Part shown: piece by piece, positions 50,822 to 64,000 of the stretch | Numbering within the stretch: position 1 is the stretch's first letter | Layout: every line of letters starts with the position of its first letter | Made by a program: the position numbers and the translations under genes | Origin: Anaerofilum sp. An201 | Lineage (GTDB): Bacteria; Bacillota; Clostridia; Oscillospirales; Ruminococcaceae | Reading direction: 5' to 3' | Length of the DNA stretch: 64,000 nt | Assembly (NCBI RefSeq): GCF_002160015.1 | Contig: NZ_NFJT01000003.1 | Location: 62,001 to 126,000 of the forward strand | The notes under the pieces: model-generated | Database searches by the model: none | Told to the model about the DNA's origin: nothing | The model's input: the letters and a program-made list of their open reading frames with translations, nothing else

Positions 50822-50855
50822 TTGGCATCCCCCTCTTTCTGCCTGAGTATTGAAA

Positions 50856-50919
50856 GCAGAAGCGCACTGCGCTCTTCCGCCACGAACGAAAGCATACCAC
50901 AATGCTTTTGAATTTGCAA
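50856..50919 (-). promoter_or_regulatory. glmS promoter and leader hairpin
   Basis: On the minus strand TTGCAA (50914-50919), 17-base spacer and TATGCT (50891-50896). The leader of about 65 bases contains a GCGGAAGAGCGC-AGT-GCGCTTCTGC imperfect hairpin (50856-50880) just before the AGAGGGGG ribosome site. No ribozyme consensus is present. Confidence 0.65.
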
Positions 50920-50979
50920 TATCGCGTATAAAATTTGCACTTTATGCACAACGCGCTGCCCAAAAGAGCGAAAAACAAG

Positions 50980-51010
50980 TTGCGCCCTGCCAAAAACAGG
51001 CAGGGCGCAA
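50980..51010. terminator. Terminator of the beta-lactamase-fold gene
   Basis: A 12-bp perfect stem (TTGCGCCCTGCC with GGCAGGGCGCAA) around seven bases; on the minus strand the sequence continues ACTTGTTTTT. It follows the gene at 51027 and precedes glmS. Confidence 0.8.
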
Positions 51011-51026
51011 ACTGGCATATTTGATT

Positions 51027-52823
51027 TTATGAAGGGGAGCTCTCCTGCAATTCCAGCCGCGGGCAGCAGAACTGCAGCACCTGATGCCGGGCAAACGAGA
51101 TGTCCTTGAAAACCTGCAGGAACATCTCGGCCTGAGGATTGCCCTCCATCTGTCGCAGGGCGCCCAGCATCGAGGGAGATTCGTCGAACTGAAGCTGCAC
51201 GCCTTCGGGCAGCAGGAAAAACTTCAAAATGCGGGTGCTGGAGTGTTCGGGCAAACACACCAGCAGTTTCAGCACAGGGTGGTCGTCCTCGTCGTGGGTC
51301 ATGCGGCAGACGGCGGCGGCCCTCCATTCCTCGCCGCCGATCTCCAGCACACAGGGACAGGGATGGTCGAAGCAGAGCGGCAGGGCATAGACCTGGTTGT
51401 TCTCCTGCCAGCGCATCGTCAGCGTGTCGGCCTCCATCACAAAGGAAACGGCCTGCAAACCGGGGGTGTGGTTGCCCTGCATGCACTGCACGATCAGCGG
51501 CAGCAGCCCCGCCCGGTTGTCGCGGGCGGTAAAACTGCGTCCGGCCAGCAGGCGCGCCGCCGTCTCGGCCTCGGTGGGGGCGGCGGGCGGCGGGGGCGGC
51601 AGCAGCTTCTGCGCCAGGCGCTGGTACCACCGCAGCGGGGCGGCAGCGGGGAGGTCGCCGGGAGCAGTGCGCCCGAACACCAGCCGGTTGGAACACCGCG
51701 CCAGGCGTTGGGCCGCAGGCGGATCGTCGGGCAGAGCGGTTTCGGAAAAAGACGCAGGATCACGGAAAATCTTTTTCAGCAAAGTGAAGGCGGGGCTGTC
51801 GGTGAAGAGGTTCGCGCTGCCGGAATTGAGCACCACCACCGTGTCGGTCTGGGGGAAGGCGGCGGCGTATTGGCCAAACATGCCGTTGAGGGTGAAGGCT
51901 CCGCCCTCCAGCGGCCACATCTGGTATCCGTAGGCGCCCTGCTCTCCGCGGATGCGGGCGGTGGTGGCCTGTCTGACCCAGCTCTCGCTCAAAATGCGCC
52001 GGCTGGTGCCGTCCGGGCTGTGCCACACGCCGCCGTTCAGATACAGCAGCGCCAGCTTGCCCATATCCTCCGGCATCATATACATGCCCCAGCCGCCCTT
52101 TTCGGTGCCCAGCGGGCAGGTCTCCCAGGCCACCGGCCCAAATCCCAGCGGGTCGAACAGGCGGGGCGTGAGGTATTCCAGTACGCTCTGCCCGGTGCGG
52201 CGGCGCACAATGGCGGCCAGCAGGTAGCTGTTCATGCTGTTGTAGTCGAAGCGGGTGCCCGGCTCAAACTGCACCTCGGCCTCAAAAAAGGACCGCACCC
52301 AGTCCTTTTCCAGCACCGCCCCGGCCTCCCGGAAGTTCACGCCGCTGCACATCGCCAGCAGGTTGCGCACCGTCAGCATCCGGGTGCGGCGCGAGGTGAA
52401 CATGTTGATGTGTTCGGGAAACAAAGCGCTCAGCGGTTCGTCCAGTTTCAGGTTCCCTTCGTCCCACAAAAGGCCGATGGCGGTTCCCGTCACCGACTTG
52501 CAAAGGCTGTGCGTCACATGCCACAGATCGGGCGAATAGGGAGCGAACCCCGCCGAAAAGATCCGCCGTCCGTGCCGGATGACGATCAGGTTGTGCACTG
52601 CGGCGCCGGGGATCTCCGCCAGCTGCCGCACCAGCTGTTCCAGCTGCGCGCTGGAAACGCCCTGCTGTTCGGGCGTGCTGCGGGGCAGGGGGACCGCGCG
52701 GCGGTTCTGCTGTGAAAAGGCGGGCTTTTGCGGCTCCTCCTGCCAGGGCAGCATCCGGTCGGTGTCGCCGGTCAGCAGCCGCTTGGTATAGTTCAGGGCT
52801 TTCATCTGGGATTTCAGCTCCAT
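51027..52823 (-). CDS. Beta-lactamase/PBP4*-family serine hydrolase
   Basis: A 598-residue protein with a class C beta-lactamase-like domain (PF00144 type). The catalytic Ser-x-x-Lys is in HVTHSLCKSVTG near residue 105 and the Tyr-x-Asn in FDYNSMNSYLLAA near 195. A C-terminal extension of about 200 residues (after a proline-rich LLPPPPPAAPTE linker near 440) has no recognised family. No signal peptide is visible, so it is likely a cytoplasmic esterase or peptidase, not a resistance enzyme. Start ATG 52823 follows a GGTGGAG site; M7 is an alternative. Confidence 0.85.
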   Translation of the reverse strand: MELKSQMKALNYTKRLLTGDTDRMLPWQEEPQKPAFSQQNRRAVPLPRSTPEQQGVSSAQLEQLVRQLAEIPGAAVHNLIVIRHGRRIFSAGFAPYSPDLWHVTHSLCKSVTGTAIGLLWDEGNLKLDEPLSALFPEHINMFTSRRTRMLTVRNLLAMCSGVNFREAGAVLEKDWVRSFFEAEVQFEPGTRFDYNSMNSYLLAAIVRRRTGQSVLEYLTPRLFDPLGFGPVAWETCPLGTEKGGWGMYMMPEDMGKLALLYLNGGVWHSPDGTSRRILSESWVRQATTARIRGEQGAYGYQMWPLEGGAFTLNGMFGQYAAAFPQTDTVVVLNSGSANLFTDSPAFTLLKKIFRDPASFSETALPDDPPAAQRLARCSNRLVFGRTAPGDLPAAAPLRWYQRLAQKLLPPPPPAAPTEAETAARLLAGRSFTARDNRAGLLPLIVQCMQGNHTPGLQAVSFVMEADTLTMRWQENNQVYALPLCFDHPCPCVLEIGGEEWRAAAVCRMTHDEDDHPVLKLLVCLPEHSSTRILKFFLLPEGVQLQFDESPSMLGALRQMEGNPQAEMFLQVFKDISFARHQVLQFCCPRLELQESSPS

Positions 52824-52907
52824 CGTTCTCCACCATCTTTCTTTCTCTGCCCAAAAGGATGGGCCATATACCTGTATTATAACAGCCGATTGTGAACAAA
52901 GCATAAC

Positions 52908-52942
52908 AAAAAACGGCTGGCGCTCAAAGGAAGCGACAGCCG
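52908..52942 (-). terminator. Terminator of the DUF5685 cluster
   Basis: On the minus strand CGGCTG...CGCT and AGCG...CAGCCG form a stem followed by TTTTTT. It lies ten bases after the stop of the membrane protein. Confidence 0.88.
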
Positions 52943-52951
52943 GGATCGGAT

Positions 52952-53497
52952 TCAGTTTTTTTTGTGGAGAATGCGCGGCCGTATCCGGCAGAGATACAGC
53001 CGGAACACGTTGCACAGCGCCGCATCGTAGATGAAAAAGGTCACGTTCCCCATCACCAGCAGCGTGACCAGCATCGGCAGGGCGATGCCGGCAGTGTCCG
53101 CCTGGAGCGCGGGCACAGGCAGCACCACCAGCAGAAGGGTATACATCGCCGCAATGGCACAGTTGAACAGCGCCAGCTTGGCGGCCATCCGCAGCGGTCT
53201 GCGGCGGATGCGGTCCAGCCGGACCTTTAAAAGAGGATAGTATCCCAGCAGGAAGATGTAGATGCACACCGCCTCCACATCCGGGCAGAACAGCCCCGCC
53301 AGTGCACTCACCACCACATACACAAGAATCCCCGATTTCAAACCAAATTCCACCGCCACCGGCACCACACACAGCCCGGCCAGCGCCGGAGCCAGAAAGG
53401 TGGCGAGCGGAAGGATGCCCCCCATCAGCATCAAAACCACGGCCAGCGCGCCAAAAACTCCGCACAGCGCGGTGCGCCGGGTATGTTTGCGGGGCAT
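52952..53497 (-). CDS. Polytopic membrane protein (ECF S-component-like)
   Basis: A 181-residue protein with about five to six hydrophobic segments, starting RRTALCGVFGALAVVLMLMG, which looks like the N-terminus of ECF-transporter S-components or QueT/ThiW-like proteins. No ligand motif is recognised. It is the third gene of a cluster with a DUF5685 protein and a J-like protein; only three bases separate it from the latter. Function unknown. Confidence 0.72.
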   Translation of the reverse strand: MPRKHTRRTALCGVFGALAVVLMLMGGILPLATFLAPALAGLCVVPVAVEFGLKSGILVYVVVSALAGLFCPDVEAVCIYIFLLGYYPLLKVRLDRIRRRPLRMAAKLALFNCAIAAMYTLLLVVLPVPALQADTAGIALPMLVTLLVMGNVTFFIYDAALCNVFRLYLCRIRPRILHKKN

Positions 53498-53500
53498 CGG

Positions 53501-54124
53501 TCAGCACCCCCCGCCCATGCAGTCGCAGCAGGCGTTCATGCACATCATGGCCGCACACATGTCGCAGCAGTTGCAGGCGGCCACCTGTCCGCCGCCGGGC
53601 GCGCCGTAGCCTGCATAGGGATTGCCGGGCATCTGGCCGTTTTGGCTCTGCTGCAGATTGCGCAGGGCGGCCTCGTATTCGCGGTTGCCGGGCGCCAGAC
53701 GGCAGGCGGCGGAGAAATACTGGGCCGCCTCGTTCAGCCAGCCCTTGTAGTAGTAGGCGCTGCCCATCAGGAAGTTCCATTCCGCCTGCTGGGGACCGTT
53801 GGGCACCGTGTTCAGACGGGCCAGCGCCTCGTCGGCGCGCCCCTGGTTGATCAGCGCGCGGATCTCCTGCCACAGGTTCTGGCCCTCCGTCTGTGCGCCG
53901 GTCTGGCCGGCGTTCGGGGCGCTCTGGGCCGTGCCGGCGCGCAGATGGCTCATCGCCTCGTCGAAGGCGGCGTTGATCTCATTCATCTTCGCCTCGGCCT
54001 CTTCCTTCATCGGGCTGGCCTCATATTCCGGGCCGCTGTATTTCTGCGCAAGAGCGCGGTAGGCGGCTTTCACCTCGTCCTCGGTGGCGTTGGGGGAGAC
54101 TCCCAGGATTTCATATGCAGTCAT
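53501..54124 (-). CDS. J-domain-like protein without HPD, cysteine-rich tail
   Basis: A 207-residue protein. Residues 1-70 match a J domain (MTAYEILGVSPNATEDEVKA and the later KMNEINAAFDEAM), but the loop reads KYSGPEY where DnaJ has HPD, so it cannot stimulate DnaK in the normal way. Residues about 85-150 are TPR-like (AEWNFLMGSAYYYKGWLNEA). The last about 30 residues hold nine cysteines (ACNCCDMCAAMMCMNACCDC), an apparent metal-binding tail. ATG 54124 overlaps the DUF5685 stop (ATGA). Confidence 0.82.
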   Translation of the reverse strand: MTAYEILGVSPNATEDEVKAAYRALAQKYSGPEYEASPMKEEAEAKMNEINAAFDEAMSHLRAGTAQSAPNAGQTGAQTEGQNLWQEIRALINQGRADEALARLNTVPNGPQQAEWNFLMGSAYYYKGWLNEAAQYFSAACRLAPGNREYEAALRNLQQSQNGQMPGNPYAGYGAPGGGQVAACNCCDMCAAMMCMNACCDCMGGGC

Positions 54125-54981
54125 GTATAACTTCCTTTCTGTTTGGCGCGGGGCTGTCCCGCCTGTGCAATGCTCTGCGGCAGGCCCAGATAGACGATGT
54201 TGTCCCAGATGGGCTTGTTCAGCCGCAGGTTCAGCATGGTGTAGCTGCGGGCGGCTTCGGCGGCGGCTGCCCGGCATTGCCGCCGTGCCTCGCCGATCGC
54301 TCCGGCCGCGTCCAGACCGTGCAGAGCAAATACATTGTAGCGTCCTTTTTTGACGTCCGAACCAAAATCCTCGGCGGCGTCCAGATAGTAGATGATCTTT
54401 CCCAGGAACAGCCCCATCCGGTACAGCGCCGTGCGCTGGCTTTCCTCGGCGGCACACGCGGCAAAGAGGGCGCCGGTCATGCGGGCGGTGGGGTCGGCGG
54501 CCTGGTCGTACCCGGCGCAGCCCTCCTTTTCCACGGCGGCCTGGTCGGCGGTCGCCTGTGCCAGCGTGCGGTCCAGTTCGGGGCGGCGGGCGGCCGCCTT
54601 GCGGTGCAGCCGCCGGGCCAGCAGACGCAGCATCCGGGTGCCCATCCGGCGGACCAATCCCTCGTCGGCCATGTCGTCGGCCAGCTTATACCACACGGTC
54701 AGGATCAGGCCGTCTGCCGCCAGCCGCAGCCCCTCGGTGTCCCGCAGCATGCAGCGGCGGCGCGGGTTCACCATGCACCGCTCGGCGCAGGGGCGTCCCT
54801 CCTGGCCGGACAATCCGTCCGCCATCAGGCTCACAAGCACGAGATCGTAGTTCAAAAACATTCGGCCCAGCAGCCCGTAGTCGTCCGCCAGCTGTTTGCA
54901 CAGCCCGCAGTATACGCTGCGGTAGGCCTCGAATTCCTTCACCTTCATTTCGGGCTTACAGGGCAGCAGATAGCCAAACAA
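54121..54981 (-). CDS. DUF5685 family protein
   Basis: A 286-residue, mostly helical protein starting MFGYLLPCKPEMKVKEFEAY, a DUF5685 hallmark. It has six conserved-looking cysteines (8, 25, 28, 65, 69, 77; CGLC and CAERC...C), a DDMADE motif at 102-107 and a second Asp-rich segment D201-D205-D209 followed by GRYN, resembling the two metal motifs of isoprenyl/squalene-type synthases. TTG start with AGGGAGGA nine bases before. It heads a cluster with a J-like protein and a membrane protein. Function is unknown; the motif comparison is inference. Confidence 0.83.
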   Translation of the reverse strand: MFGYLLPCKPEMKVKEFEAYRSVYCGLCKQLADDYGLLGRMFLNYDLVLVSLMADGLSGQEGRPCAERCMVNPRRRCMLRDTEGLRLAADGLILTVWYKLADDMADEGLVRRMGTRMLRLLARRLHRKAAARRPELDRTLAQATADQAAVEKEGCAGYDQAADPTARMTGALFAACAAEESQRTALYRMGLFLGKIIYYLDAAEDFGSDVKKGRYNVFALHGLDAAGAIGEARRQCRAAAAEAARSYTMLNLRLNKPIWDNIVYLGLPQSIAQAGQPRAKQKGSYT

Positions 54982-55022
54982 AACGCGGCGTCCTCCCTTG
55001 CTGCAAAACTGTAAACACTATT

Positions 55023-55051
55023 ATCATAGCGTATTTTGCGGGCAAAGGCAA
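55023..55051 (-). promoter_or_regulatory. Promoter of the DUF5685 cluster
   Basis: On the minus strand TTGCCT (55046-55051) and TATGAT (55023-55028) are 17 bases apart, about 45 bases before the TTG start. Confidence 0.65.
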
Positions 55052-55109
55052 TTGGTTCGGTGATAAAATACCGAAAAATTCGCGTTTTATTCATAACTTG
55101 CCCCAAAAA

Positions 55110-55916
55110 TCAGGGCACATCGGTCCCCAGCGCACAGAAGCGGTACCCCTGCTGCGCATACCAGTCGATCATGGAGGGCAGCGCCTCCACGGTGGTCTTG
55201 GTCTGCTTGGTGTCGTGCAGCAGCACCACGCAGGTGGAGAGGTCCTTGCTGCCCTCCTGGACGGTGCGCAGGATCTTGCCGGCGGAGGGATGCCCGCCCA
55301 CCGCGTCGTTGGCGCAGACGTTCCAGTCCAAAACCTTATACCCCTTTTCGCCCGCCTGCTGGTTCAGCTTTTCCATCAGGCTGCTGCCGCCGTATTTGCG
55401 GCTGACGGTGTTGGTGCTGCCGCCGGGAAACCGCAGCCATTCCGGCGGGGTGGTGATGTAGGGGGAGATGGCCTGTTTCAGCTGCTCGATGTCCTGCCAG
55501 AAAGCGGCGGTGCTGGAGTAGATCTGTCTGTAGTCGTGGGTGCAGCTGTGCAGTGCGATGGTGTGCCCCTCCTGTTCGATGCGACGTAAGATCGGCAGAT
55601 ATTCCTGGTTGTTCTCGGCCGCGATCACAAAAAAGGAAGCCACCGCCTGCTTTTCCTTCAAAATATCCAGGATCTCTTCGGTGTGTTCGGACGGGCCGTC
55701 GTCGAAGGTGAGGAACACCCGCTTTTCTGCCGGAGCCGGAGAGGGAGCGGTGGCCGGCGCATCGAAGGGGAGGGGGGCAGGCCAGGGCGAAATATCCTCC
55801 AGCAGACAGGCGGCGGGGCGCGCGGACAGATGCCGGGCAATCAGGCCGCCCGCTGCCAGTGCGGCAGCCAGGCAGACGGCAGCCGCTGCATGCCGGCGTG
55901 ACAGACGAAATTTCAT
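55110..55916 (-). CDS. Polysaccharide deacetylase (NodB domain), secreted
   Basis: A 268-residue extracytoplasmic enzyme likely to remove N-acetyl groups from peptidoglycan or another glycan. It has an N-terminal membrane anchor or signal (AAAAVCLAAALAAGG near 12), a proline-rich linker, then the NodB motifs TFDDGPSEHTEEIL near 70, HSCTHDY near 122, RFPGGSTNTV near 166 and a final LLHDTKQT near 234. All metal and catalytic residues appear present. Divergent from the redox fusion gene at 56140. Confidence 0.92.
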   Translation of the reverse strand: MKFRLSRRHAAAAVCLAAALAAGGLIARHLSARPAACLLEDISPWPAPLPFDAPATAPSPAPAEKRVFLTFDDGPSEHTEEILDILKEKQAVASFFVIAAENNQEYLPILRRIEQEGHTIALHSCTHDYRQIYSSTAAFWQDIEQLKQAISPYITTPPEWLRFPGGSTNTVSRKYGGSSLMEKLNQQAGEKGYKVLDWNVCANDAVGGHPSAGKILRTVQEGSKDLSTCVVLLHDTKQTKTTVEALPSMIDWYAQQGYRFCALGTDVP

Positions 55917-55936
55917 ACGATCAGCTCCTTGTCAAG

Positions 55937-56089
55937 ATATACAGGCGCGGGCGTTGCCGCAGGTCGCTGTATATATATGAAACAGGCGGCGGGATTATTT
56001 GCCCGTGATGCGGCGAAAAAGTTTCACAGAAAACAGGCCGCAGGCTCGGCACAATACCACTTCTTTGCCGGTGGAAATTGTGCTATACT
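55937..56089 (+). promoter_or_regulatory. Intergenic dyad and extended -10 of the redox fusion gene
   Basis: The gap between the divergent deacetylase and redox genes contains an 8-bp inverted repeat, ATATACAG (55937-55944) and CTGTATAT (55967-55974), 22 bases apart, and an extended -10 TGCTATACT (TATACT 56084-56089) about 50 bases before the redox gene. A good -35 is not visible (TTCTTT at 56061), which would suit an activated promoter. Confidence 0.45.
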
Positions 56090-56139
56090 GAAAAAAACTG
56101 CCGCCGATCCGGACGGTAAAAACAGGGAGGTCTGAGAGT

Positions 56140-58707
56140 ATGAAAATCCTCGTTGTGGGCGGCGTGGCCGCCGGCACCAAAGCGGCCGCAAAGCTGAAAC
56201 GGCAGGACCGTGCGCTCGAGGTGAAGATCCTCACCAAAAGCACAGACATTTCCCATGCAGGCTGCGGCTTGCCCTATTATGTGGGCGGGATGATCGAAAG
56301 CCGCGGCGAACTGATCGTCAACAGCCCGGAGAAATATGCAGGGCTCACCGGCACGGAGGTGGTCACCGGCTGCGAGGTGACCGCCGTCGACCCAACCGCC
56401 AAAACGGTGCAGGCAGTGAAGGACGGGCAGACCTTCACCGAATCCTACGACAAACTCATCCTCGCCACCGGCGCGGAGCCGCTTGTGCCGGATGTGCCGG
56501 GCGCCGGTCTGGAAGGCGTGTTCTGCATGCGCACGCCGGACGACGCGGTGGGCCTGCGGGAATACCTGGACGCCAACAGCTGCCGCCGCGCCGTTGTGGT
56601 GGGCGCGGGCTTCATCGGCCTGGAGGTGGCCGAGAATCTGCTGGCCAGAGGGCTGCAGGTGACGGTGCTGGACGCCATGCCCCAGGTGCTGCCCAACGTG
56701 TTTGACCCCGAAATGGCAGACTATGTCCGCCGCCGGCTGCGTCAGAGCGGCATGACGGTGCTCACCTCCACCGCCATCACCGGCATCACCGGGGAAGGGC
56801 GCGCCGCCGGCGTTGCCACCGCCAACGGTTCCATCCCGGCGGATGTGGTCGTGCTGGCCATCGGCATCCGCCCGGCCACCGGCTTCCTGGAGGGCAGCGG
56901 GGTGGAGATGTGCAAAGGCGCTGTGCTGGTGGACGAGACGATGGCCACCAACCTGCCGGACATCTATGCCGCCGGCGACTGCGCGATGGTGCGCAATCGT
57001 CTCACCGGCAAGCCGCAGTGGTCGGCGATGGGTTCCACCGCGAACATCACGGCGCGCTGCCTGGCAAAAACCATCACCGGAACGCCCTGTACATACGGCG
57101 GATGCCTGGGCACCGGCGTGGTGAAGCTGCTTCCGGACCTGAACGGCGGCCGCACCGGCCTCACCGAGGAGCAGGCGAAACAGGCCGGCTACCACCCGGC
57201 CACCGTCATCTGCGTGGTGGACGACAAAGCGCATTACTACGCCGGTTCCGCCCCGTTTGTGGTCAAGCTGCTGGCCGACCGCGCCACCCATACGCTGCTG
57301 GGCATCCAGGTGCTGGGCGCGGGCGCGGTGGACAAGATGGTGGACATCGCCGTCACCGGTCTGGCCGGGGGAATGACGCTGGAGGAGTTCGACACACTGG
57401 ACTACGCCTACGCGCCTCCCTTCTCCACCGCCATCCATCCGTTTGTGCAGGCGTGCTACATTCTGGAAAACAAGCTGTCCGGCGAGCTGGAGAGCTTCAC
57501 ACCGGCGCAGTACGCCGCCGGCGAGGCGAAGGAATACAAGGTGCTGGATGTGCAGCCTGCCCCCGCCATCCCCGGCGCACAGTGGATCGACCTGGCGAAG
57601 GTCACCGGCCCCATCGACGGCTTGGCAAAGGACGAAAAACTGCTGCTGGTCTGCGCCCGCGGCAAGCGGGGTTATTTCCTGCAAAACCGCCTCAAGGCCT
57701 TTGGCTACACCAACACCCGCGTGCTGGAGGGCGGCGTGACCTTCAATGTGGTGAAGGTGGCGGCGCCCGGCGGCAGGCTGTCCCCGCAGGAGATCAAGCG
57801 GGTGAAGGGGCTGGGCTGCCTGCAGGACAAGCGCTATCCCGACCATTTCAACGTCCGCGTCATCACCCGCAACGGCAAGATCACCGCGGCCGAGCAGCGC
57901 GCCGTCGCCGAGGCCGCCGAGAGATTCGGTTCCGGCGAGGTGACCATGACCACCCGCCTGACGCTGGAGATCCAGGGCGTTCCCTACGAAAACCTCGATG
58001 CGCTGATGAAATTCCTGAACGCCAACGGCCTGGAGACGGGCGGCACCGGTTCCAAGGTGCGTCCGGTGGTATCCTGCAAGGGGACCACCTGCCAGTATGG
58101 TCTGTGCGATACCTTTGCGCTCAGCCGGAAGCTGCACGATCTGTACTATGTGGGCTATCACAGTGTGGAACTGCCGCATAAATTCAAGATCGCGGTGGGC
58201 GGCTGCCCCAACAACTGTGTCAAGCCCAACCTGAACGACCTGGGGATCATCGGCCAGCGGGTGCCGCAGGTGGAGCTGGACAAATGCCGCGGCTGCAAGG
58301 TGTGCCAGGTGGAGCAGAACTGCCCCATCCATGTGGCAAAGCTGGAAAACGGCAAGGTGTTCATCGACCCCAACGCCTGCAACCACTGCGGGCGCTGCGT
58401 GGGCAAGTGCCCGTTCGGCGCACTGGAAGACGGTGTGTATGGATATAAGGTATACATCGGCGGGCGCTGGGGCAAGAAGGTGGCCGAAGGCCGCGCCCTG
58501 CGCAAGATCTTCACCAGCGAGGAAGAAGTGGTGGCCCTCGCCGAGAAAGCCATCCTGCTGTTCCGTGACGAGGGGATCTCCGGCGAACGCTTTGCCGACA
58601 CCATTGCGCGGCTGGGCTTCGATTATGTGGAGGACAAGCTGCTGCACGGCGAAGTGGACAAGGAAGCTGTCATGAAAAAGACGGTGAAGGGCGGCGCTAT
58701 CTGCTGA
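56140..58707 (+). CDS. CoA-disulfide reductase - rhodanese - sirohaem reductase - ferredoxin fusion
   Basis: An 855-residue multi-domain redox protein. Residues 1-450: FAD/NAD(P) disulfide reductase with KILVVGGVAAGTKAAAKL and the redox-active C42 in HAGCGLPYY, as in CoA-disulfide reductases. Residues about 460-540: rhodanese domain with active-site C505. Residues about 545-700: a nitrite/sulfite reductase ferredoxin-like half and a 4Fe-4S/sirohaem site, C646-x4-C651 with C689-x3-C693 (GGCPNNC). Residues about 705-765: two ferredoxin clusters (C716, 719, 722, 728 and C747, 750, 753, 757). Probably reduces a sulfur species using NADH; the reaction is inferred. ATG 56140 follows GGGAGG. Confidence 0.88.
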   Translation: MKILVVGGVAAGTKAAAKLKRQDRALEVKILTKSTDISHAGCGLPYYVGGMIESRGELIVNSPEKYAGLTGTEVVTGCEVTAVDPTAKTVQAVKDGQTFTESYDKLILATGAEPLVPDVPGAGLEGVFCMRTPDDAVGLREYLDANSCRRAVVVGAGFIGLEVAENLLARGLQVTVLDAMPQVLPNVFDPEMADYVRRRLRQSGMTVLTSTAITGITGEGRAAGVATANGSIPADVVVLAIGIRPATGFLEGSGVEMCKGAVLVDETMATNLPDIYAAGDCAMVRNRLTGKPQWSAMGSTANITARCLAKTITGTPCTYGGCLGTGVVKLLPDLNGGRTGLTEEQAKQAGYHPATVICVVDDKAHYYAGSAPFVVKLLADRATHTLLGIQVLGAGAVDKMVDIAVTGLAGGMTLEEFDTLDYAYAPPFSTAIHPFVQACYILENKLSGELESFTPAQYAAGEAKEYKVLDVQPAPAIPGAQWIDLAKVTGPIDGLAKDEKLLLVCARGKRGYFLQNRLKAFGYTNTRVLEGGVTFNVVKVAAPGGRLSPQEIKRVKGLGCLQDKRYPDHFNVRVITRNGKITAAEQRAVAEAAERFGSGEVTMTTRLTLEIQGVPYENLDALMKFLNANGLETGGTGSKVRPVVSCKGTTCQYGLCDTFALSRKLHDLYYVGYHSVELPHKFKIAVGGCPNNCVKPNLNDLGIIGQRVPQVELDKCRGCKVCQVEQNCPIHVAKLENGKVFIDPNACNHCGRCVGKCPFGALEDGVYGYKVYIGGRWGKKVAEGRALRKIFTSEEEVVALAEKAILLFRDEGISGERFADTIARLGFDYVEDKLLHGEVDKEAVMKKTVKGGAIC

Positions 58708-58725
58708 GCCTTCTGCCGGTATGCA

Positions 58726-58761
58726 AAAGGCCCGGTCTCCGCTGCGGGAGGCCGGGCCTTT
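58726..58761 (+). terminator. Terminator of the redox fusion gene
   Basis: AAAGGCCCGG pairs with CCGGGCCTTT around a 16-base loop with inner pairing, followed by CTGTG. Confidence 0.82.
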
Positions 58762-58762
58762 C

Positions 58763-58992
58763 TGTGTGTGCCAAAGTGTGTACCGAAACAAAAAATCCCT
58801 CGAAAAACCGGCGGCTTTTCGAGGAACTTGCGGCAGGCGTGGTCAATTTTAGATTGCGAGCACCCGCAAAAGGGTGGTAGCGACAGGGAGCCGTTGTGAG
58901 GGCGCTTGCAACCGAACAGGCGAGCCGAGCGTGCCCTTTTGCGGAAAAGGAGGAGCAGGGGAGCGGGCGGACGGCTTCTTTTTCGCCAAAGG
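58763..58992. other. Structured non-coding region beside tRNA-Gly
   Basis: Between the redox gene terminator and the tRNA terminator lie 230 bases without a credible gene. It contains CCTCGAAAA/TTTTCGAGG (about 58799-58826), a long-range CCGCAAAAGGG and CCCTTTTGCGG pair (about 58863-58947) and GGCTTCTTTTT/AAAAAAGAAGCC (about 58974-59006). It may be a dispersed repeat or remnant of an element inserted at the tRNA; no transposase or integrase frame is seen. Confidence 0.5.
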
Positions 58993-59031
58993 CAAAAAAA
59001 GAAGCCGGAGCAAAGTCCGCTTTGCTCCGGC
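58993..59031 (-). terminator. Terminator of tRNA-Gly
   Basis: On the minus strand GCCGGAGCAAAG pairs with CTTTGCTCCGGC (12 bp, 4-base loop), followed by TTCTTTTTTT. Confidence 0.92.
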
Positions 59032-59032
59032 G

Positions 59033-59107
59033 TGGAGCAGGTGATGGGAGTCGAACCCACGTCCTCAGCTTGGAAGGCTGATGTACTAGCCGTTGTACGA
59101 CACCTGC
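59033..59107 (-). tRNA. tRNA-Gly (anticodon TCC)
   Basis: The minus strand folds as a cloverleaf: 7-bp acceptor GCAGGTG/CACCTGC with U73 and encoded CCA, D-arm with GGCTAG, anticodon stem TCAGC/GCTGA around CTTCCAA (anticodon TCC, reads GGA/GGG), and T-arm with GGTTCGACTCC. 75 nt including CCA. A consensus promoter and terminator flank it, so it is transcribed alone. Confidence 0.96.
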
Positions 59108-59121
59108 AAGATGCGAGTATT

Positions 59122-59150
59122 ATTATACCCGCAACCGGCCGGTGTGTCAA
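59122..59150 (-). promoter_or_regulatory. Promoter of tRNA-Gly
   Basis: On the minus strand a perfect TTGACA (59145-59150), 17-base spacer and perfect TATAAT (59122-59127), fitting a strong stable-RNA promoter. Confidence 0.92.
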
Positions 59151-59226
59151 GCAGAAATTTGCCGGCCCCGCAAAGGGGGCGCGGAGGATGCCGCCGTGGG
59201 CGCAAACCCGCGCGTTTTTCCAGACG

Positions 59227-60228
59227 TCAGGGCATGCGGATAGCCGAATAGATCGTCACAGCGTCCTGCACATGCAGCGGAACGCTGGTGTCGGTGGTCA
59301 TCGCGCCGGTGGTGATGAGGCGGAATTCCTGCCCGCCCTTTTCGGCAAAGCTGGCCAGACACATACCGGCCTCGTCGGTGAAGCCCGTCTTTCCGCCCAG
59401 AAGGGTGAAGTCCAGCTCCTGGCCGTCCAAACGGCTCAGCGCCGAGTGCTGCATCACCAGGCCATCGGGATGCGCCGACAGCGGTCCGGTGACATAGCTG
59501 GCGGTGGACATCACGGTGCGCAGCGTTTCGTTCTGCAAAGCGGCGTTCAGCAAAATCGACAGGTCCCGCGTGGTGGACACATGCCCGTCCTGCTGGATGC
59601 CCCACACGTTGGCGAAGTGGGTGTTGGTCATTCCCAGCGCGGCGGCCTTGTCGTTCATCCACTGCACAAAGGTGGCTTCGTCGCCGGCCGCGGTCAGAGC
59701 CAGTGCGGTGGCCGCATCCGCGCCGGATGGGAGGATCGTGCCGTACAGCAGATCGCGCACGGTGGGAGTCTCCCCGGCCCAGAAACCGGCCATCGAGGCG
59801 TTCTGATCGAACAGCGGCTGGTAGATCTCCAGCGGCATGGTCACCAGCTGCTCCGGATCGGTCAGGTGCTCCAGCGCCACCAGCGCGTTCATGATCTTGG
59901 TGAGCGAGGCGGGGTATACGCTCTCGTCGGCGTCACCCTTCTGCCAGATCACATGGCCGTCCGCGTCCAGCAGCAGCGCGTGGGTGCTCACCACCGCGCT
60001 CTCGTCCAGCTCCACGGTGGGCAGCGGCGTGGGAGTGGGTTCCGGCGTGGGGGTGGGCTGTGGTGCGGACGTTGAACTGTCCGCCGGACGGGCGCGGTCA
60101 TCCTGGCGAAGCAGGAGCCACCCGGCCAGCACCACCGCCAGGGCGGCAGCGAGAAGCAAGCACAAAAACAGCCGGACCAAACGGTGGCGACGGCGGGCGG
60201 ATCGGCGGGAACGGGGACGCTGCGGCAT
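59227..60228 (-). CDS. D-alanyl-D-alanine carboxypeptidase (S11, PBP5-like)
   Basis: Trims the terminal D-Ala of peptidoglycan stem peptides outside the membrane. The 333-residue protein has an arginine-rich N-terminus and an uncleaved anchor (LVRLFLCLLLAAALAVVLAG near 17), a Pro/Thr linker, then the S11 domain: SxxK in YPASLTKIM near 109, the SxN motif as PSGADAA near 170 (Asn replaced by Ala) and KTG in LLGGKTGFT near 280. The C-terminal beta domain of PBP5 is absent. The changed middle motif occurs in some Firmicutes homologues. Confidence 0.9.
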   Translation of the reverse strand: MPQRPRSRRSARRRHRLVRLFLCLLLAAALAVVLAGWLLLRQDDRARPADSSTSAPQPTPTPEPTPTPLPTVELDESAVVSTHALLLDADGHVIWQKGDADESVYPASLTKIMNALVALEHLTDPEQLVTMPLEIYQPLFDQNASMAGFWAGETPTVRDLLYGTILPSGADAATALALTAAGDEATFVQWMNDKAAALGMTNTHFANVWGIQQDGHVSTTRDLSILLNAALQNETLRTVMSTASYVTGPLSAHPDGLVMQHSALSRLDGQELDFTLLGGKTGFTDEAGMCLASFAEKGGQEFRLITTGAMTTDTSVPLHVQDAVTIYSAIRMP

Positions 60229-60338
60229 GTTGTAAACCTCCTGTAGACGGCTGCGGGCGGCCCGCCCCGCGTTTTCCTGCAGGGCGGCGCGCTCTCTGGG
60301 CAGCCTGTAAAAAAGTGTCGTTTGCCTATATACACGAC

Positions 60339-60368
60339 ATTATAGCATGCTTTTCTTCAGCTGCGCAA
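60339..60368 (-). promoter_or_regulatory. Promoter of the carboxypeptidase gene
   Basis: On the minus strand TTGCGC (60363-60368), 18-base spacer and extended -10 TGCTATAAT (TATAAT 60339-60344). Confidence 0.65.
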
Positions 60369-60437
60369 AACAAAGGGACAAAACCGGCCGAAAAATCCCT
60401 GCTTTGTTCGGCAACGTGACGAAAAGTTTCAAATAAA

Positions 60438-60465
60438 TGTACATCTGTGAAAATTGTGTTATAAT
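60438..60465 (+). promoter_or_regulatory. Promoter of ppa
   Basis: TGTACA (60438-60443), 16-base spacer and extended -10 TGTTATAAT (TATAAT 60460-60465), about 70 bases before ppa. The rest of the 306-base gap between the carboxypeptidase and ppa shows no gene. Confidence 0.7.
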
Positions 60466-60534
60466 AGAACTGCCCAAGAGAACAAGGAACAGCGCCGTGT
60501 GGCGCGCAAATATGTAGAAGGAAGGTAGTCAAGT

Positions 60535-61065
60535 ATGGCAAATATCTGGCATGACATCAGCCCGTCCCGCATCAACCCCGACGATTTTATCGCTGTGATC
60601 GAGATCGAGAAAGGTTCCAAGAACAAATACGAGCTGGACAAGGAAACCGGCCATATCATCCTCGACCGCATCCTCCACACCTCCACCCACTATCCGGCCA
60701 ACTACGGCCTGATCCCCCGCACTCTGGCCGATGACGGCGACCCGCTGGACGTGCTGGTGCTGTGCAGCGAGGTGATCCATCCGCTCAGCCTGGTGCGCTG
60801 CTATCCGGTGGGTGTGATCAAGATGCTGGACGGCGGCAAGATGGACGAGAAGATCATCGCCATCCCGTTCAACGATCCCACCTATTGTACATATAAGGAT
60901 ATCTCCGAGCTGCCCGGCCACATCTTCTCCGAGATGCGCCACTTTTTCCAGGTGTACAAGAGCCTGGAGGGCAAGGAGACGGTGGTGAATGAGGAGGAAG
61001 GCCCCGAAGAAGCCCGCCGCATCATCCAGGAATGCCGCGAGCGCTACATCCAGTACTTCTGCTGA
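60535..61065 (+). CDS. ppa: Inorganic pyrophosphatase
   Basis: Soluble family I pyrophosphatase. The 176-residue protein has the signature DGDPLDVLVLCSE near 66, preceded by NYGLIPRTLADD, and IAIPFNDPTY and AEEARRIIQ-like C-terminal segments. The YPANYGLIP start of the active site and the DxDxxDxL acidic cluster are intact. A GGAAGG ribosome site precedes the ATG. Confidence 0.97.
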   Translation: MANIWHDISPSRINPDDFIAVIEIEKGSKNKYELDKETGHIILDRILHTSTHYPANYGLIPRTLADDGDPLDVLVLCSEVIHPLSLVRCYPVGVIKMLDGGKMDEKIIAIPFNDPTYCTYKDISELPGHIFSEMRHFFQVYKSLEGKETVVNEEEGPEEARRIIQECRERYIQYFC

Positions 61066-61080
61066 AATAGCCGCATGCTC

Positions 61081-61107
61081 CCCCCGGCTGCAAGGCCGGG
61101 GGTTTTT
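61081..61107 (+). terminator. Terminator of ppa
   Basis: CCCCCGGC pairs with GCCGGGGG around six bases, followed by TTTTT. Confidence 0.93.
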
Positions 61108-61199
61108 GTGGGTTTTGCCATTTGCGGCGGCATATCCGGCAGAAATCCGGTGCAAACTGCAAAATGTGCGCAAATCCCGGTTTTCCGCCTGGAAAGCGG

Positions 61200-61228
61200 T
61201 TGACTTTACAGGCGGGGTGTGATAGAAT
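61200..61228 (+). promoter_or_regulatory. Promoter of ylxM-ffh
   Basis: TTGACT (61200-61205), 17-base spacer and TAGAAT (61223-61228), followed by a roughly 50-base leader. Confidence 0.8.
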
Positions 61229-61284
61229 AAACACCGCTGGATGTAAAGCGGATTCCTTTACATGGCTGCGAAGGAGGACGGGAC

Positions 61285-61647
61285 ATGGCAAAAAATCTGG
61301 AGATCTCGTATCTGCTCGATTTTTACGGCGATGTCCTCACCGAAAAGCAGCGGGATGTGATGGAACAGTATTACAACGACGATCTGTCGCTGGCCGAGAT
61401 CGCGGAAAACTTCGGCATCACCCGGCAGGGTGTGCGGGACGCGATCAAGCGGGGCGAGGGCATTCTGCTCCGGCTGGAACAGAAGGTGGGCTTCGCCGGG
61501 CGCTACCGCGCCATGCAGCAGAGCCTGGGCGAGCTGGAAGAGCTGGCCTCGGCCATCCGGCAGACCAACGCGCACTGTGCGGTGTCGGAGGACATCGACC
61601 GCAGTGCCGCACGGATGCTTGCGATCATCCGTTCACTTTCCGAGTAA
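61285..61647 (+). CDS. ylxM: YlxM family SRP-associated DNA-binding-like protein
   Basis: A 120-residue, helical protein of the UPF0122 family, which modulates SRP GTPase activity and lies beside ffh. It has a sigma-70 region-4-like helix-turn-helix, LAEIAENFGITRQGVRDAIK near residue 36, and starts with ISYLLDFYGDVLTEKQRDVM. The 16-base gap to ffh and the shared promoter mark one operon. Confidence 0.93.
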   Translation: MAKNLEISYLLDFYGDVLTEKQRDVMEQYYNDDLSLAEIAENFGITRQGVRDAIKRGEGILLRLEQKVGFAGRYRAMQQSLGELEELASAIRQTNAHCAVSEDIDRSAARMLAIIRSLSE

Positions 61648-61663
61648 CAGGAGGCGGGAGCCA

Positions 61664-62992
61664 ATGGCATTTGAATCTCTCAGCGACAAGCTGGGCCAGG
61701 TATTCAAGAAGCTGCGCGGCAAAGGCAAGCTGAGCGAAAGCGACATCAAGGCCGCCATGCGCGAGGTGCGGATGGCTCTTCTGGAGGCCGACGTCAACTA
61801 TAAGGTCGCCAAGGACTTCATCGCCACCGTCACCGAGAAGGCGATGGGCCACGAGGTGATGGAAAGCCTCACGCCGGCCCAGCAGGTGATCAAGATCGTC
61901 AGCGAGGAGCTCACCGCCCTGATGGGCAGCGACGCCGCGCGCATCCACATCAAATCGAAGCCCCCCACCATCCTCATGATGTGCGGCCTGCAGGGCTCCG
62001 GTAAAACCACCCACTCGGCCAAGCTGGCCAAATACTTCATCAAGCAGGGGCATCATCCGCTGCTTGTCGCCTGCGACATCTACCGCCCGGCTGCGATCGA
62101 CCAGCTGAAGGTGGTGGGCGAAAAGGCGGGCGCGCCGGTCTTTGAGATGGGGCAGGAAAAGCCCGAGATCATCGCCAAAAAGGCGGTGGCCTACGCCAAA
62201 GACCACGGCAACGACATCGTCATCCTCGACACCGCCGGCCGCCTGCACATCGACACCGAGCTGATGGCAGAGCTGCAGCGGGTGAAGGAAGCGGTGGAGG
62301 TGGACGAGGTGCTGCTGGTCATCGACTCGATGGCCGGCCAGGACGCCGTGAACGTCGCCAAGACCTTCAACGAGGCGGTGGAGGTGGACGGCATCATCCT
62401 CACCAAGCTGGACGGCGACACCCGCGGCGGTGCGGCGCTGTCGGCCCGCCAGGTCACCGGCAAGCCCATCAAGTTCGCCGGTGTGGGCGAGAAGCTGGAC
62501 GACCTCGAAGTGTTCCACCCCGACCGGATGGCCAGCCGGATCCTCGGCATGGGCGACGTGATGAGCCTGATCGAAAAGGCCCAGCAGACCCAGGACGCCA
62601 AAAAGGCGGAGGAGACCGCCCGCCGGATGATGGAGAACAAGTTCGACATGAACGACATGCTCGACCAGTTCGCCCAGATGAAAAAGATGGGCGGCGCGGC
62701 AGGCCTTCTGTCGATGCTGCCCGGCGGCAGCCAGATCAACCCCGACGACATCGACGAGAAGATCTTTGTGCGGATGGAAGCCATCATCCAGAGCATGACC
62801 CCCGCCGAGCGCGCAAAGCCCGCCATCATCAATCCCAAGCGCAAGCGCCGCATCGCCGCCGGCAGCGGCACCCGCGTGGAGGACGTGAACAAGCTGCTCA
62901 AGCAGTACGAGCAGATGAGCAAAATGCTCAAGCAGATCAAGAAGAACCCGCGCCGTCTGGGCGGTCTGGGGCGTCTGCTGGGCATGCGCTGA
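61664..62992 (+). CDS. ffh: Signal recognition particle protein Ffh
   Basis: SRP54-type GTPase that binds signal sequences. The 442-residue protein has the N domain, G domain with [15 protein letters not shown] near 107, [13 protein letters not shown] near 189 and [20 protein letters not shown] near 247, then a Met-rich M domain ([18 protein letters not shown] and [14 protein letters not shown]) that binds SRP RNA and signal peptides. ATG 61664 follows AGGAGG. FtsY, its receptor, is at 15487. Confidence 0.97.
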
Positions 62993-63068
62993 CCCGAACA
63001 CGGTATTTTCCGGCATTGCCGGTTTCAAAAATACAATCAATCATACAATCAACCAGGAGGTGACAGGA

Positions 63069-63311
63069 ATGGCTGTTAAAATTCGTCTGCGTCGCATGGG
63101 CGCCAAGAAAGCTCCGTTCTATCGTGTTGTGGTGGCGGACAGCCGCTTCCCCCGCGATGGCCGTTTCATCGAGGAGATCGGTTACTATGATCCCACCAAG
63201 GACCCCGTTGTCGTGAAGATCGACGGCGAGAAGGCCAAGAAGTGGATCGCCACCGGCGCGCAGCCCACCGATACCGTTCGCGCTCTGCTGAAGAAGTCCG
63301 AGATTCTGTAA
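63069..63311 (+). CDS. rpsP: 30S ribosomal protein bS16
   Basis: An 80-residue protein starting [20 protein letters not shown], the S16 signature, with [22 protein letters not shown] 63069 follows AGGAGGTG. It starts the rpsP-khpA-rimM group, standard after ffh. Confidence 0.97.
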
Positions 63312-63331
63312 GGAATGGAGGAACCCGAGCC

Positions 63332-63565
63332 ATGGAAGAACTTCTGATCGCACTGGCCAAGGGGCTGGTGGATGACAAGGATTCCGTACGCGTGACCGTG
63401 GACGAGCCCAATGAGGACGGCGTGGTGGTCTACCACCTGTCTGTCGCAGAGGGCGACATGGGCCGCGTGATCGGCAAACAGGGCCGGATCGCCAAGGCCA
63501 TCCGTGTTGTGATGCGCGCCGCCGGCGTACATCAGGGCACGAAGGTCATGGTGGAAATCGACTGA
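63332..63565 (+). CDS. khpA: KH-domain RNA-binding protein KhpA (YlqC)
   Basis: A 77-residue single-KH protein with the GxxG motif in RVIGKQGRIAKAIRVVM. KhpA-type proteins bind RNA broadly and, with KhpB, affect cell elongation in streptococci. It lies 20 bases after rpsP. Confidence 0.93.
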   Translation: MEELLIALAKGLVDDKDSVRVTVDEPNEDGVVVYHLSVAEGDMGRVIGKQGRIAKAIRVVMRAAGVHQGTKVMVEID

Positions 63566-63567
63566 AA

Positions 63568-63594
63568 GAAAGAGCCCCCGCCGGGCTCTTTTTT
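63568..63594 (+). terminator. Terminator between khpA and rimM
   Basis: GAGCCC and GGGCTC (63572-63588) form a stem with TTTTTT (63589-63594). It should reduce but need not stop transcription into rimM. Confidence 0.75.
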
Positions 63595-63619
63595 CTTGGC
63601 ATTCTAAAGGAGGCGCGCT

Positions 63620-64000
63620 GTGCTCAAACAATACTTGGAAATCGGCCAGATCGTCACCACCCACGGCGTGATGGGCGAGGTGAAGATCTACCCCTGGTGT
63701 GACAGCCCTGAGGTGCTGTGCGCCCTGCCGCGGCTCTACCTCTCCGAAGGCGGCCGCGCCGTGCGGGTGGAGTCCGCCCGCGTACACAAAAACATGTGCC
63801 TTGTCCAGCTGGAGGGCGTGCAGGGAATGGACGCCGGCCGCGCGCTGGTGGGCAAAACGGTGTGGGCGGCCCGTGCCGACCTGGACCTGGAGCCGGGCCG
63901 CTGGTTCGTGCAGGACATCCTCGGCTGCACGGTGCAGGACGCCGACACCGGCGAGGTGTACGGCAGGGTGACCGACGTCTCCCACCCCGGCGCAAACGAC
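63620..64000 (+). CDS. rimM: 16S rRNA processing protein RimM, 3'-truncated by window edge
   Basis: RimM assists maturation of the 30S head. The first 127 codons are present and the frame is open to the last base, so about 40-45 residues are missing. The N-terminal motif LEIGQIVTTHGVMGEVKI and the PRC-barrel start WFVQDILGCTVQD and GRVTDVSHPGAND are typical. GTG start after AAAGGAGG. trmD and rplS would be expected next. Confidence 0.94.
   Translation, partial: MLKQYLEIGQIVTTHGVMGEVKIYPWCDSPEVLCALPRLYLSEGGRAVRVESARVHKNMCLVQLEGVQGMDAGRALVGKTVWAARADLDLEPGRWFVQDILGCTVQDADTGEVYGRVTDVSHPGAND

Follow-up and report, generated by a model that had tools for sequence, protein, structure and literature searches.

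How does a bacterium come to join, in a single chain, an NAD(P)H-dependent flavoprotein, a rhodanese and a sirohaem sulfite reductase, and what would such an enzyme reduce? The question is raised by a gene at positions 56140 to 58707 of a 64,000-nucleotide stretch of the Anaerofilum sp. An201 genome (contig NZ_NFJT01000003.1, positions 62,001 to 126,000, forward strand), referred to in its whole length as the window. The 855-amino-acid product is probably a cytoplasmic, NAD(P)H-dependent sirohaem sulfite reductase that also reduces sulfane sulfur, as predicted from its modules and conserved residues. Its architecture is real and conserved in many gut Clostridia. An earlier note on the window, made from the DNA letters, had proposed four redox modules in one chain, and a Pfam scan of the protein at curated cut-offs (25 of 38 families listed) agrees, recovering the NAD(P)H-FAD module, the rhodanese, the sirohaem/4Fe-4S core and two ferredoxin clusters. 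The parts are arranged as follows (CoADR, CoA-disulfide reductase).

56140..58707, + strand: fused CoADR/rhodanese/sirohaem sulfite reductase gene; single open frame with ATG start, 855 amino acids plus stop
56140..56994, + strand: Pyr_redox_2, FAD/NAD(P)-binding module, residues 1-285 (Pfam, 207 bits)
56263..56265, + strand: C42, redox cysteine of the CoADR family, invariant in 81/81 rows
57145..57435, + strand: Pyr_redox_dim dimerisation domain, residues 336-432, with Y366 and Y424 (Pfam)
57523..57738, + strand: Rhodanese domain, residues 462-533, active loop C505-ARGKR (Pfam, 27.9 bits, cut-off 22.2)
57838..58023, + strand: NIR_SIR_ferr half domain, residues 567-628, with R573 and R606 (Pfam, 65.5 bits)
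58048..58629, + strand: NIR_SIR sirohaem/4Fe-4S domain, residues 637-830 (Pfam, 101 bits)
58270..58428, + strand: two 4Fe-4S ferredoxin motifs, residues 711-763, inserted in the sirohaem domain (Pfam, Fer4-type)
58702..58704, + strand: C855, C-terminal cysteine of the GGxxC tail, final residue in 80/80 complete rows

C42 and C505 lie where the earlier note had placed them, and the domain search accepts the sulfite-reductase core, with NIR_SIR_ferr and NIR_SIR both over cut-off. The NIR_SIR domain carries R641, K681 and K683 together with the sirohaem-cluster cysteines, C646-x4-C651 and C689-x3-C693. The two ferredoxin clusters (C716/719/722/728 and C747/750/753/757) are present as claimed; they do not form a separate module but lie inside NIR_SIR, as in Fsr, the F420-dependent sulfite reductase of methanogens.

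Solved structures cover both halves of the protein. Residues 1-535 match CoA- and NADH-dependent persulfide reductases that carry a rhodanese (8a56, 6pfz, 3icr and 3nta) at 30-35% identity and TM scores (target) of 0.86-0.93. An AlphaFold2 model, built from 54 sequences as a single, cofactor-free chain with a mean predicted local distance difference test (pLDDT) score of 85 and a predicted template-modelling score (pTM) of 0.68, aligns with the CoA-persulfide reductase 8a56 over 538 columns at a TM score (target) of 0.92, and also matches 6pfz, 3ict and 3nta. Residues 570-829 match Fsr (7np8) by sequence with an E-value of 3.2e-37. Like Fsr (7np8/7npa), the protein fuses a flavoprotein input half to one sulfite-reductase repeat, has a two-cluster ferredoxin domain inserted and shares the sulfite-binding residues. 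Unlike Fsr, whose input half is an F420H2 oxidase, it has a CoADR-type NAD(P)H flavoprotein plus rhodanese in this place (no FrhB-like F420H2-oxidase half is among the listed 25 of 38 Pfam families), and it further differs in a CX4C motif instead of CX5C and in its GGxxC tail. The CoA-persulfide reductase, CoADR-RHD and Npsr enzymes (8a56, 3icr, 3nta and 6pfz) share the FAD/NAD fold and the redox and rhodanese cysteines, but their chains stop soon after the rhodanese (551-588 amino acids deposited) and contain no sulfite reductase.

One scan of a genome contig collection returned 428 relatives among 487 pattern-matched stretches, and the best 80 were kept; all counts given here come from this collection and from one class-wide sample described below. 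With the window, the kept relatives form 81 conservation rows, and 54 rows make up an alignment named A1. Seventy-nine of the 80 align over residues 1-855 and one (L057) over 1-853, with a best-segment identity of 68-80%, so that full-length relatives number at least 79 in a single genome collection; in L058 the frame is interrupted. Their records are named Oscillospiraceae, Lachnospiraceae, Gemmiger, Faecalibacterium, Blautia, Holdemania, Collinsella and others. C505, G508 and R510 are, like C42, invariant in 81/81 rows, the sirohaem-cluster cysteines and the eight ferredoxin cysteines in all 80 rows that are complete at the C-terminus, and Y366 and Y424 in 54/54 rows of A1. Five further conserved cysteines of the fused form (C148, C322, C358, C439 and C560) were considered as ligands of an additional Fe-S cluster and rejected, being lost one or two at a time and not together; all five are kept in 65 of the 81 rows, and none of 12 split partners (see below) has a cysteine at any of the first four positions. 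One fused form, L117, falls outside the main fused clade in a quick tree and lacks the extra conserved cysteines; it is possibly an early or separate fusion.

The conserved residues of the reductase half bear directly on its substrate. In an alignment to 7np8, R573, R641, K681 and K683 correspond to Fsr R355, R423, K460 and K462, and R606 to Fsr R388; all five are invariant in 54/54 rows of A1. In Fsr, the first four bind sulfite and R388 marks the assimilatory type (PMC10229431), and by the argument of that paper the equivalent residues predict six-electron sulfite reduction for the protein studied here. Reduction of another substrate at the sirohaem centre, be it nitrite or a protein persulfide or S-sulfonate carried on C855 as a built-in DsrC-like arm, appears unlikely. 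It would suit an invariant C-terminal cysteine tied to a sulfur-transfer partner, and many sulfite reductases also reduce nitrite as a side activity (PMC10229431), but the invariant Fsr-type sulfite-binding residues and assimilatory-type arginine imply carrier-free six-electron reduction, and relatives without the C-terminal tail share the same core.

The cluster motif of Fsr is CX5C-Xn-CX3C (PMC10229431). The C-x4-C spacing of the first cysteine pair, which the earlier note had singled out as unusual, is indeed present, but it is no peculiarity of this protein: 91/91 near-family rows, window included, have the CKGTTC-type spacing whether fused or not (one row, CCKGTTC, was pattern-scored as x5 but contains this CKGTTC and was counted as x4). 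Among distant reductases, 5 of 14 have C-x4-C and 9 have x5. Found in all near-family rows and in a minority of distant ones, the spacing is a mark of lineage.

In the mechanism that we propose, NAD(P)H would reduce the FAD of the CoA-persulfide-reductase module, from which electrons could take two parallel routes. Along the first, they would pass through C42 to a persulfide, either CoA-SSH or protein-SSH, that the rhodanese cysteine C505 hands on, with release of HS-. Along the second, they would pass through the two inserted 4Fe-4S clusters to the sirohaem-4Fe-4S centre, where sulfite would be converted to HS- with six electrons. This flow from NAD(P)H via FAD and ferredoxin clusters to sirohaem is plausible by analogy with Fsr (PMC10229431). 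The earlier note had instead let the rhodanese feed persulfide sulfur to the sirohaem, for which the union of the modules in one chain might speak. We consider such a transfer very improbable and two parallel routes likelier, since the reductase residues are of the six-electron assimilatory type and the CoADR family itself reduces persulfides, solved enzymes made of CoADR and rhodanese only being titled persulfide reductases (8a56, 6pfz and 3nta); the persulfide would most likely go to C42 and FAD. If the rhodanese takes thiosulfate, it would yield one persulfide, which would meet the persulfide reductase in the same chain, and one sulfite, so that a single chain could form two HS- and perhaps both halves of thiosulfate are reduced to sulfide. 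The same pair of chemistries has been put forward for Halanaerobium, where a rhodanese and a sulfite reductase (AsrABC) form a proposed, proteomics-supported route from thiosulfate to sulfide and a sirohaem-forming enzyme is more abundant with thiosulfate (PMC5497025); there the proteins are separate, whereas here they share one chain with a persulfide reductase.

The two halves also occur apart. In the class-wide sample of 291 genomes, the reductase part was matched at an E-value of 1e-15 or better in 69. Six genomes contain it within a frame of at least 861 amino acids, i.e. fused; a seventh, draft genome (G177/L118) contains an apparent rhodanese remnant plus reductase, with no CoADR match and the C-terminus GGAASL. 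A free-standing reductase of about 310-320 amino acids is encoded in many others. A CoADR-rhodanese gene of about 540 amino acids lies directly upstream of the free-standing reductase in nine loci, and in four further loci (L128, L129, L130 and L132) CoADR and rhodanese are matched on the same strand. An alignment of 12 of the 13 partners shows the rhodanese cysteine in 12/12 and the redox cysteine in 11/12 (the twelfth has a gap). The recurrence of fused as well as adjacent forms is good evidence that CoADR-rhodanese and reductase work together, and the position of the partner gene directly upstream of the reductase lends support to the proposed electron flow.

The C-terminal tail follows the same partnership. 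GGxxC ends all complete fused rows, and among 42 loci, tail and fused or adjacent same-strand CoADR occur together in 17, the tail alone in one, the partner alone in one and neither in 23 (p 1.2e-9). At the tail-alone locus (L093), a CoADR-rhodanese gene lies nearby on the opposite strand; at the partner-alone locus (L129), the contig ends 108 bases further on. On the tree, there are four independent well-supported pairs, of which on average 3.4 agree and 0 disagree (median p 0.25); with so few pairs, the correlation is not phylogenetically proven, and we regard it as suggestive. C855 may thus belong to traffic between the CoADR-rhodanese and reductase halves, and it probably acts with the former, in sulfur relay, electron relay or docking. 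That the cysteine arm links the sulfur-transfer and sirohaem halves is a tentative suggestion, and a somewhat doubtful one. Two loci show further arrangements: at L093:3268-4617, a C_GCAxxG_C_C redox domain replaces CoADR-rhodanese as the fusion partner of the reductase, which retains a GGATC tail, and at L103:4515-6778, a free-standing reductase follows genes that appear by eye to encode a thioredoxin reductase and a thioredoxin.

These distributions also bear on a simpler explanation, in which the CoADR-rhodanese half is an NADH-persulfide reductase only, the reductase half uses another donor and the fusion does no more than bring two sulfide-forming enzymes together. Flavins of the CoADR family normally reduce disulfides bound at C42, and close tail-less reductases for which no adjacent CoADR gene was found make up the 23 of 42 loci counted above (some of them near contig ends), which means that other donors serve the same core. 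Against this stand the recurrence of adjacent and fused forms, the company of the GGxxC tail and the partner in 17 of 18 tail-bearing loci, and matches to same-fold flavoproteins in NirB and in an aldehyde-oxidoreductase complex, which pass electrons to Fe-S partners. Taken together, we judge mere co-localisation improbable and prefer an electron-donating CoADR half.

Gene neighbourhoods provide a partial link to sulfite. A divergent LysR-type gene lies within 1 kb of the fusion in 35 of 80 fused loci (35 of the 75 with enough flank), and LysR-like open reading frames (ORFs) stand beside several split and free-standing reductases. A YeiH-family transporter gene adjoins 4 of 80 fused and five split loci; one such gene was scanned and scored over the Pfam cut-off and below that of TIGR00698. 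YeiH and YeiE are linked with sulfite.

Sirohaem synthesis genes, which the earlier note had proposed to look for, were found in the An201 genome. One cluster on contig C75 holds hemA, a CysG N-domain (98 bits, over cut-off), hemC, a CobA-HemD fusion (CobA part 317 bits) and HemB; hemA, hemC and the HemD part were recognised by eye from the translation. Matches resembling corrin-ring methyltransferases lie near this cluster, so the C75 genes alone do not prove that sirohaem is made. Fifty fusion genomes were picked from the 80, mostly for long flanks; 37 contain a CysG N-domain over cut-off and 29 contain HemC, and some relatives adjoin CbiK, CysG or (by eye) cysG-hemC genes. HemB is absent in all 46 HemC-less genomes tested and present in all 19 HemC-bearing ones tested, An201 included; since HemB is missing together with HemC, assembly gaps are an unlikely cause.

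Several observations weigh against the predicted sulfite reductase with its two routes. The tail-less reductases that evidently manage with other donors are one, and the 13 of 50 fusion genomes without a CysG N-domain over cut-off are another. No LysR-type gene was found in 40 of the 75 fused loci with enough flank, or in the window from 46001 on. The AlphaFold2 model falls below a pLDDT of 50 at residues 636-641 and 647-652, around the sirohaem site, and with a pTM of 0.68 for one chain without cofactors it is silent on the path from FAD to the clusters. Fsr does not take thiosulfate (PMC10229431), so that its use here would depend on the rhodanese. Finally, the protein misses the NCBIfam equivalog cut-offs of TIGR03385 for CoA-disulfide reductase (369.6 of 578.8 bits), TIGR02912 for AsrC (109.9 of 324.1 bits), and DsrA and DsrB (89.2 of 392.85 and 79.2 of 341.5 bits); the assignment of CoA as partner and of sulfite as substrate accordingly rests on fold and residues. 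AsrC is a separate subunit served by AsrA and AsrB. Like AsrC and the other group III Dsr-LP proteins (grouping of PMC3448663), the protein has a sirohaem core, two extra 4Fe-4S motifs and basic substrate residues, but its score lies far under the AsrC cut-off. It likewise resembles NirB in having FAD/NAD and sirohaem modules in one chain, but the NirB model matches in pieces only and below its cut-off (225.1 of 578.35 bits). NirB is an NADH-dependent nitrite reductase.

The most surprising result concerns relatives that have lost tetrapyrrole synthesis, a loss that is tied to a transporter beside the reductase. In 15 of the 21 HemC-less fusion genomes, genes for a substrate-binding protein (SBP) and a FecCD permease follow right after the fusion or after CbiK, and 14 of these also have the ATPase (in L037, the contig ends). 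None of the 29 HemC-bearing fusion genomes has an adjacent transporter, although five have less than 3 kb of downstream sequence. The class sample repeats the pattern in 42 genomes, with an adjacent transporter in 21 of 29 without HemC and 0 of 13 with HemC. After removal of two double-counted genomes and of ten loci with a contig end less than 3 kb downstream, and addition of the window, the combined set shows an SBP-FecCD-ATPase transporter next to the reductase in 35 of 45 genomes without HemC and 0 of 36 with HemC (p 4e-14). A quick reductase tree of 91 rows implies 18 changes of HemC status and 19 of transporter; in seven well-supported pairs that differ in HemC, an average of 6.3 differ in the transporter as expected and 0 in the opposite sense (median p 0.03). 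Of the 68 other genomes with a reductase match, 26 remain, 22 of them bearing HemC; 14 loci fetched from these 26 have the transporter in L143 (no HemC) and lack it in L149 (no HemC) and in 12 with HemC. The transporter lies downstream of the fusion in, for example, L016 (10568-14260), L017, L018, L039, L042 (Holdemania filiformis) and L049 (Flavonifractor sp. An100), and is adjacent to the reductase also at L102, L103, L107, L143 and others.

A profile built from 23 rows of the binding protein (A2) extends this association beyond adjacent genes. It scores 199-477 bits in 26 of 30 HemC-less genomes (the misses being G246, G049, G335 and G339) and reaches this level in 0 of 43 HemC-bearing ones, the 199-bit line having been drawn after the scores were known; one HemC-bearing genome has a weak match of 80 bits. 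Twenty of the 43 were scored fully, and in the other 23, where scoring covered 29 of the first-look candidates, absence is less sure. When the eight genomes that supplied A2 rows are dropped, 18 of 22 HemC-less genomes still score (Fisher tests). In An201, which has hemC and HemB, no match was obtained in the 29 of 43 candidates scored, as the rule predicts. Ten HemC-less loci have no adjacent transporter, and in seven of them the binding protein is encoded elsewhere in the genome, with permease and ATPase matches beside it in L157, L158, L159, L160 and L163; near the binding protein of L155 and L156, no permease or ATPase match was found.

What the transporter carries is suggested by its neighbours. 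CbiK, of the sirohydrochlorin chelatase family, lies beside it in L016, L017, L018, L039 and L042, and CysG with both activities (SUMT and CysG N-domain) in L135 and L136; L163 has a CysG-type sequence there. In the last three, whose genomes lack HemC, the neighbouring CysG suggests import of a uroporphyrin(ogen)-type precursor. In HemC-less genomes, CobA/SUMT is over cut-off in 6 of 44 and CbiK found in 13 of 44, so that many would need to take up a tetrapyrrole at or near completion. Several Arg/Lys positions, but no His, are conserved in the binding proteins, which would be appropriate for a polycarboxylate ligand, for example sirohaem or uroporphyrin. Human stool has been found to contain uroporphyrin III, and salvagers of tetrapyrrole precursors are for the most part Firmicutes and host-associated (PMC6461909); the same paper describes such salvage for cobamides. 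We therefore propose, as an evenly balanced call, that gut Clostridia without tetrapyrrole synthesis have a dedicated SBP-FecCD-ATPase importer of sirohaem or a precursor (uroporphyrin(ogen) or sirohydrochlorin) that serves this reductase family, the last steps being carried out by co-encoded CysG or CbiK where present.

The transporter might alternatively import an iron-siderophore, haem or cobalamin, its absence beside the reductase in HemC-bearing genomes reflecting lifestyle. The binding protein belongs to the Peripla_BP_2 family, and among solved structures it comes closest to iron-uptake and IsdE-type proteins (best E-value 2e-17), for which reason its sequence does not name the ligand. 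We regard this explanation as a serious one that nonetheless falls short of being likely: the subfamily defined by A2 separates HemC-less from HemC-bearing genomes (the latter scored in part), the transporter adjoins a sirohaem enzyme, CbiK or CysG, and it changes with HemC repeatedly on the tree. The linkage of transporter and HemC loss, in turn, ties the reductase module to sirohaem. A literature search that saw the listings in part and opened almost none of the texts returned no description of a sirohaem importer. The Collinsella tanakaei genome of L081 and the genome of L091 have neither HemC nor an A2 match and contain a CbiK match at most 1.5 kb from the fusion; an ORF of about 433 amino acids in the former (L140) reads as a CbiK-like part plus a CysG N-domain, and the L091 genome is similar.

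If the prediction is true, the fusion corresponds, in bacteria and with NAD(P)H, to the Fsr of methanogens, and its sequence marks it as a new, putative variant of one-repeat sulfite reductases in which an NAD(P)H persulfide reductase forms the input half. The protein probably makes hydrogen sulfide. For sulfide production in the gut, PMC13232883 considers DsrAB, AsrABC, cysteine degradation and taurine, and the scores under the curated AsrC, Dsr and CoADR cut-offs mean that annotation by those models would miss the protein. The linkage with loss of HemB and HemC further suggests that gut bacteria exchange sirohaem or its precursors. No description of the fused enzyme was seen in a literature search that opened few texts and reached few preprints and subscription journals.

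In the An201 genome, the fusion gene looks monocistronic, because the left-hand neighbour, an ORF at 55110..55916, lies on the opposite strand and a tRNA gene on the - strand stands to the right. Its flanks contain the following elements.

56125..56130, + strand: ribosome-binding site GGGAGG, 9 nt 5' of the ATG (read from the sequence)
58725..58770, + strand: terminator-like hairpin 3' of the fusion gene, fold -31.9 kcal/mol
59036-59107, - strand: tRNA (Rfam scan)

The hairpin is absent from the output of a terminator scan despite its folding energy, a promoter scan of 55900-58900 found none, and the Rfam scan of 50000-64000 returned no RNA element besides the tRNA. An antisense ORF of 902 amino acids (56083..58791, - strand) spans the whole gene and was taken as a shadow of its GC-rich codons; antisense ORFs of at least 400 amino acids also overlie the fusion gene in 54 of 80 relatives. 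The same genome encodes a second CoADR-rhodanese-like protein (G000:C13:1855-3453), whose 569-amino-acid frame has no sulfite reductase part and is 35% identical to residues 2-530 of the fusion.

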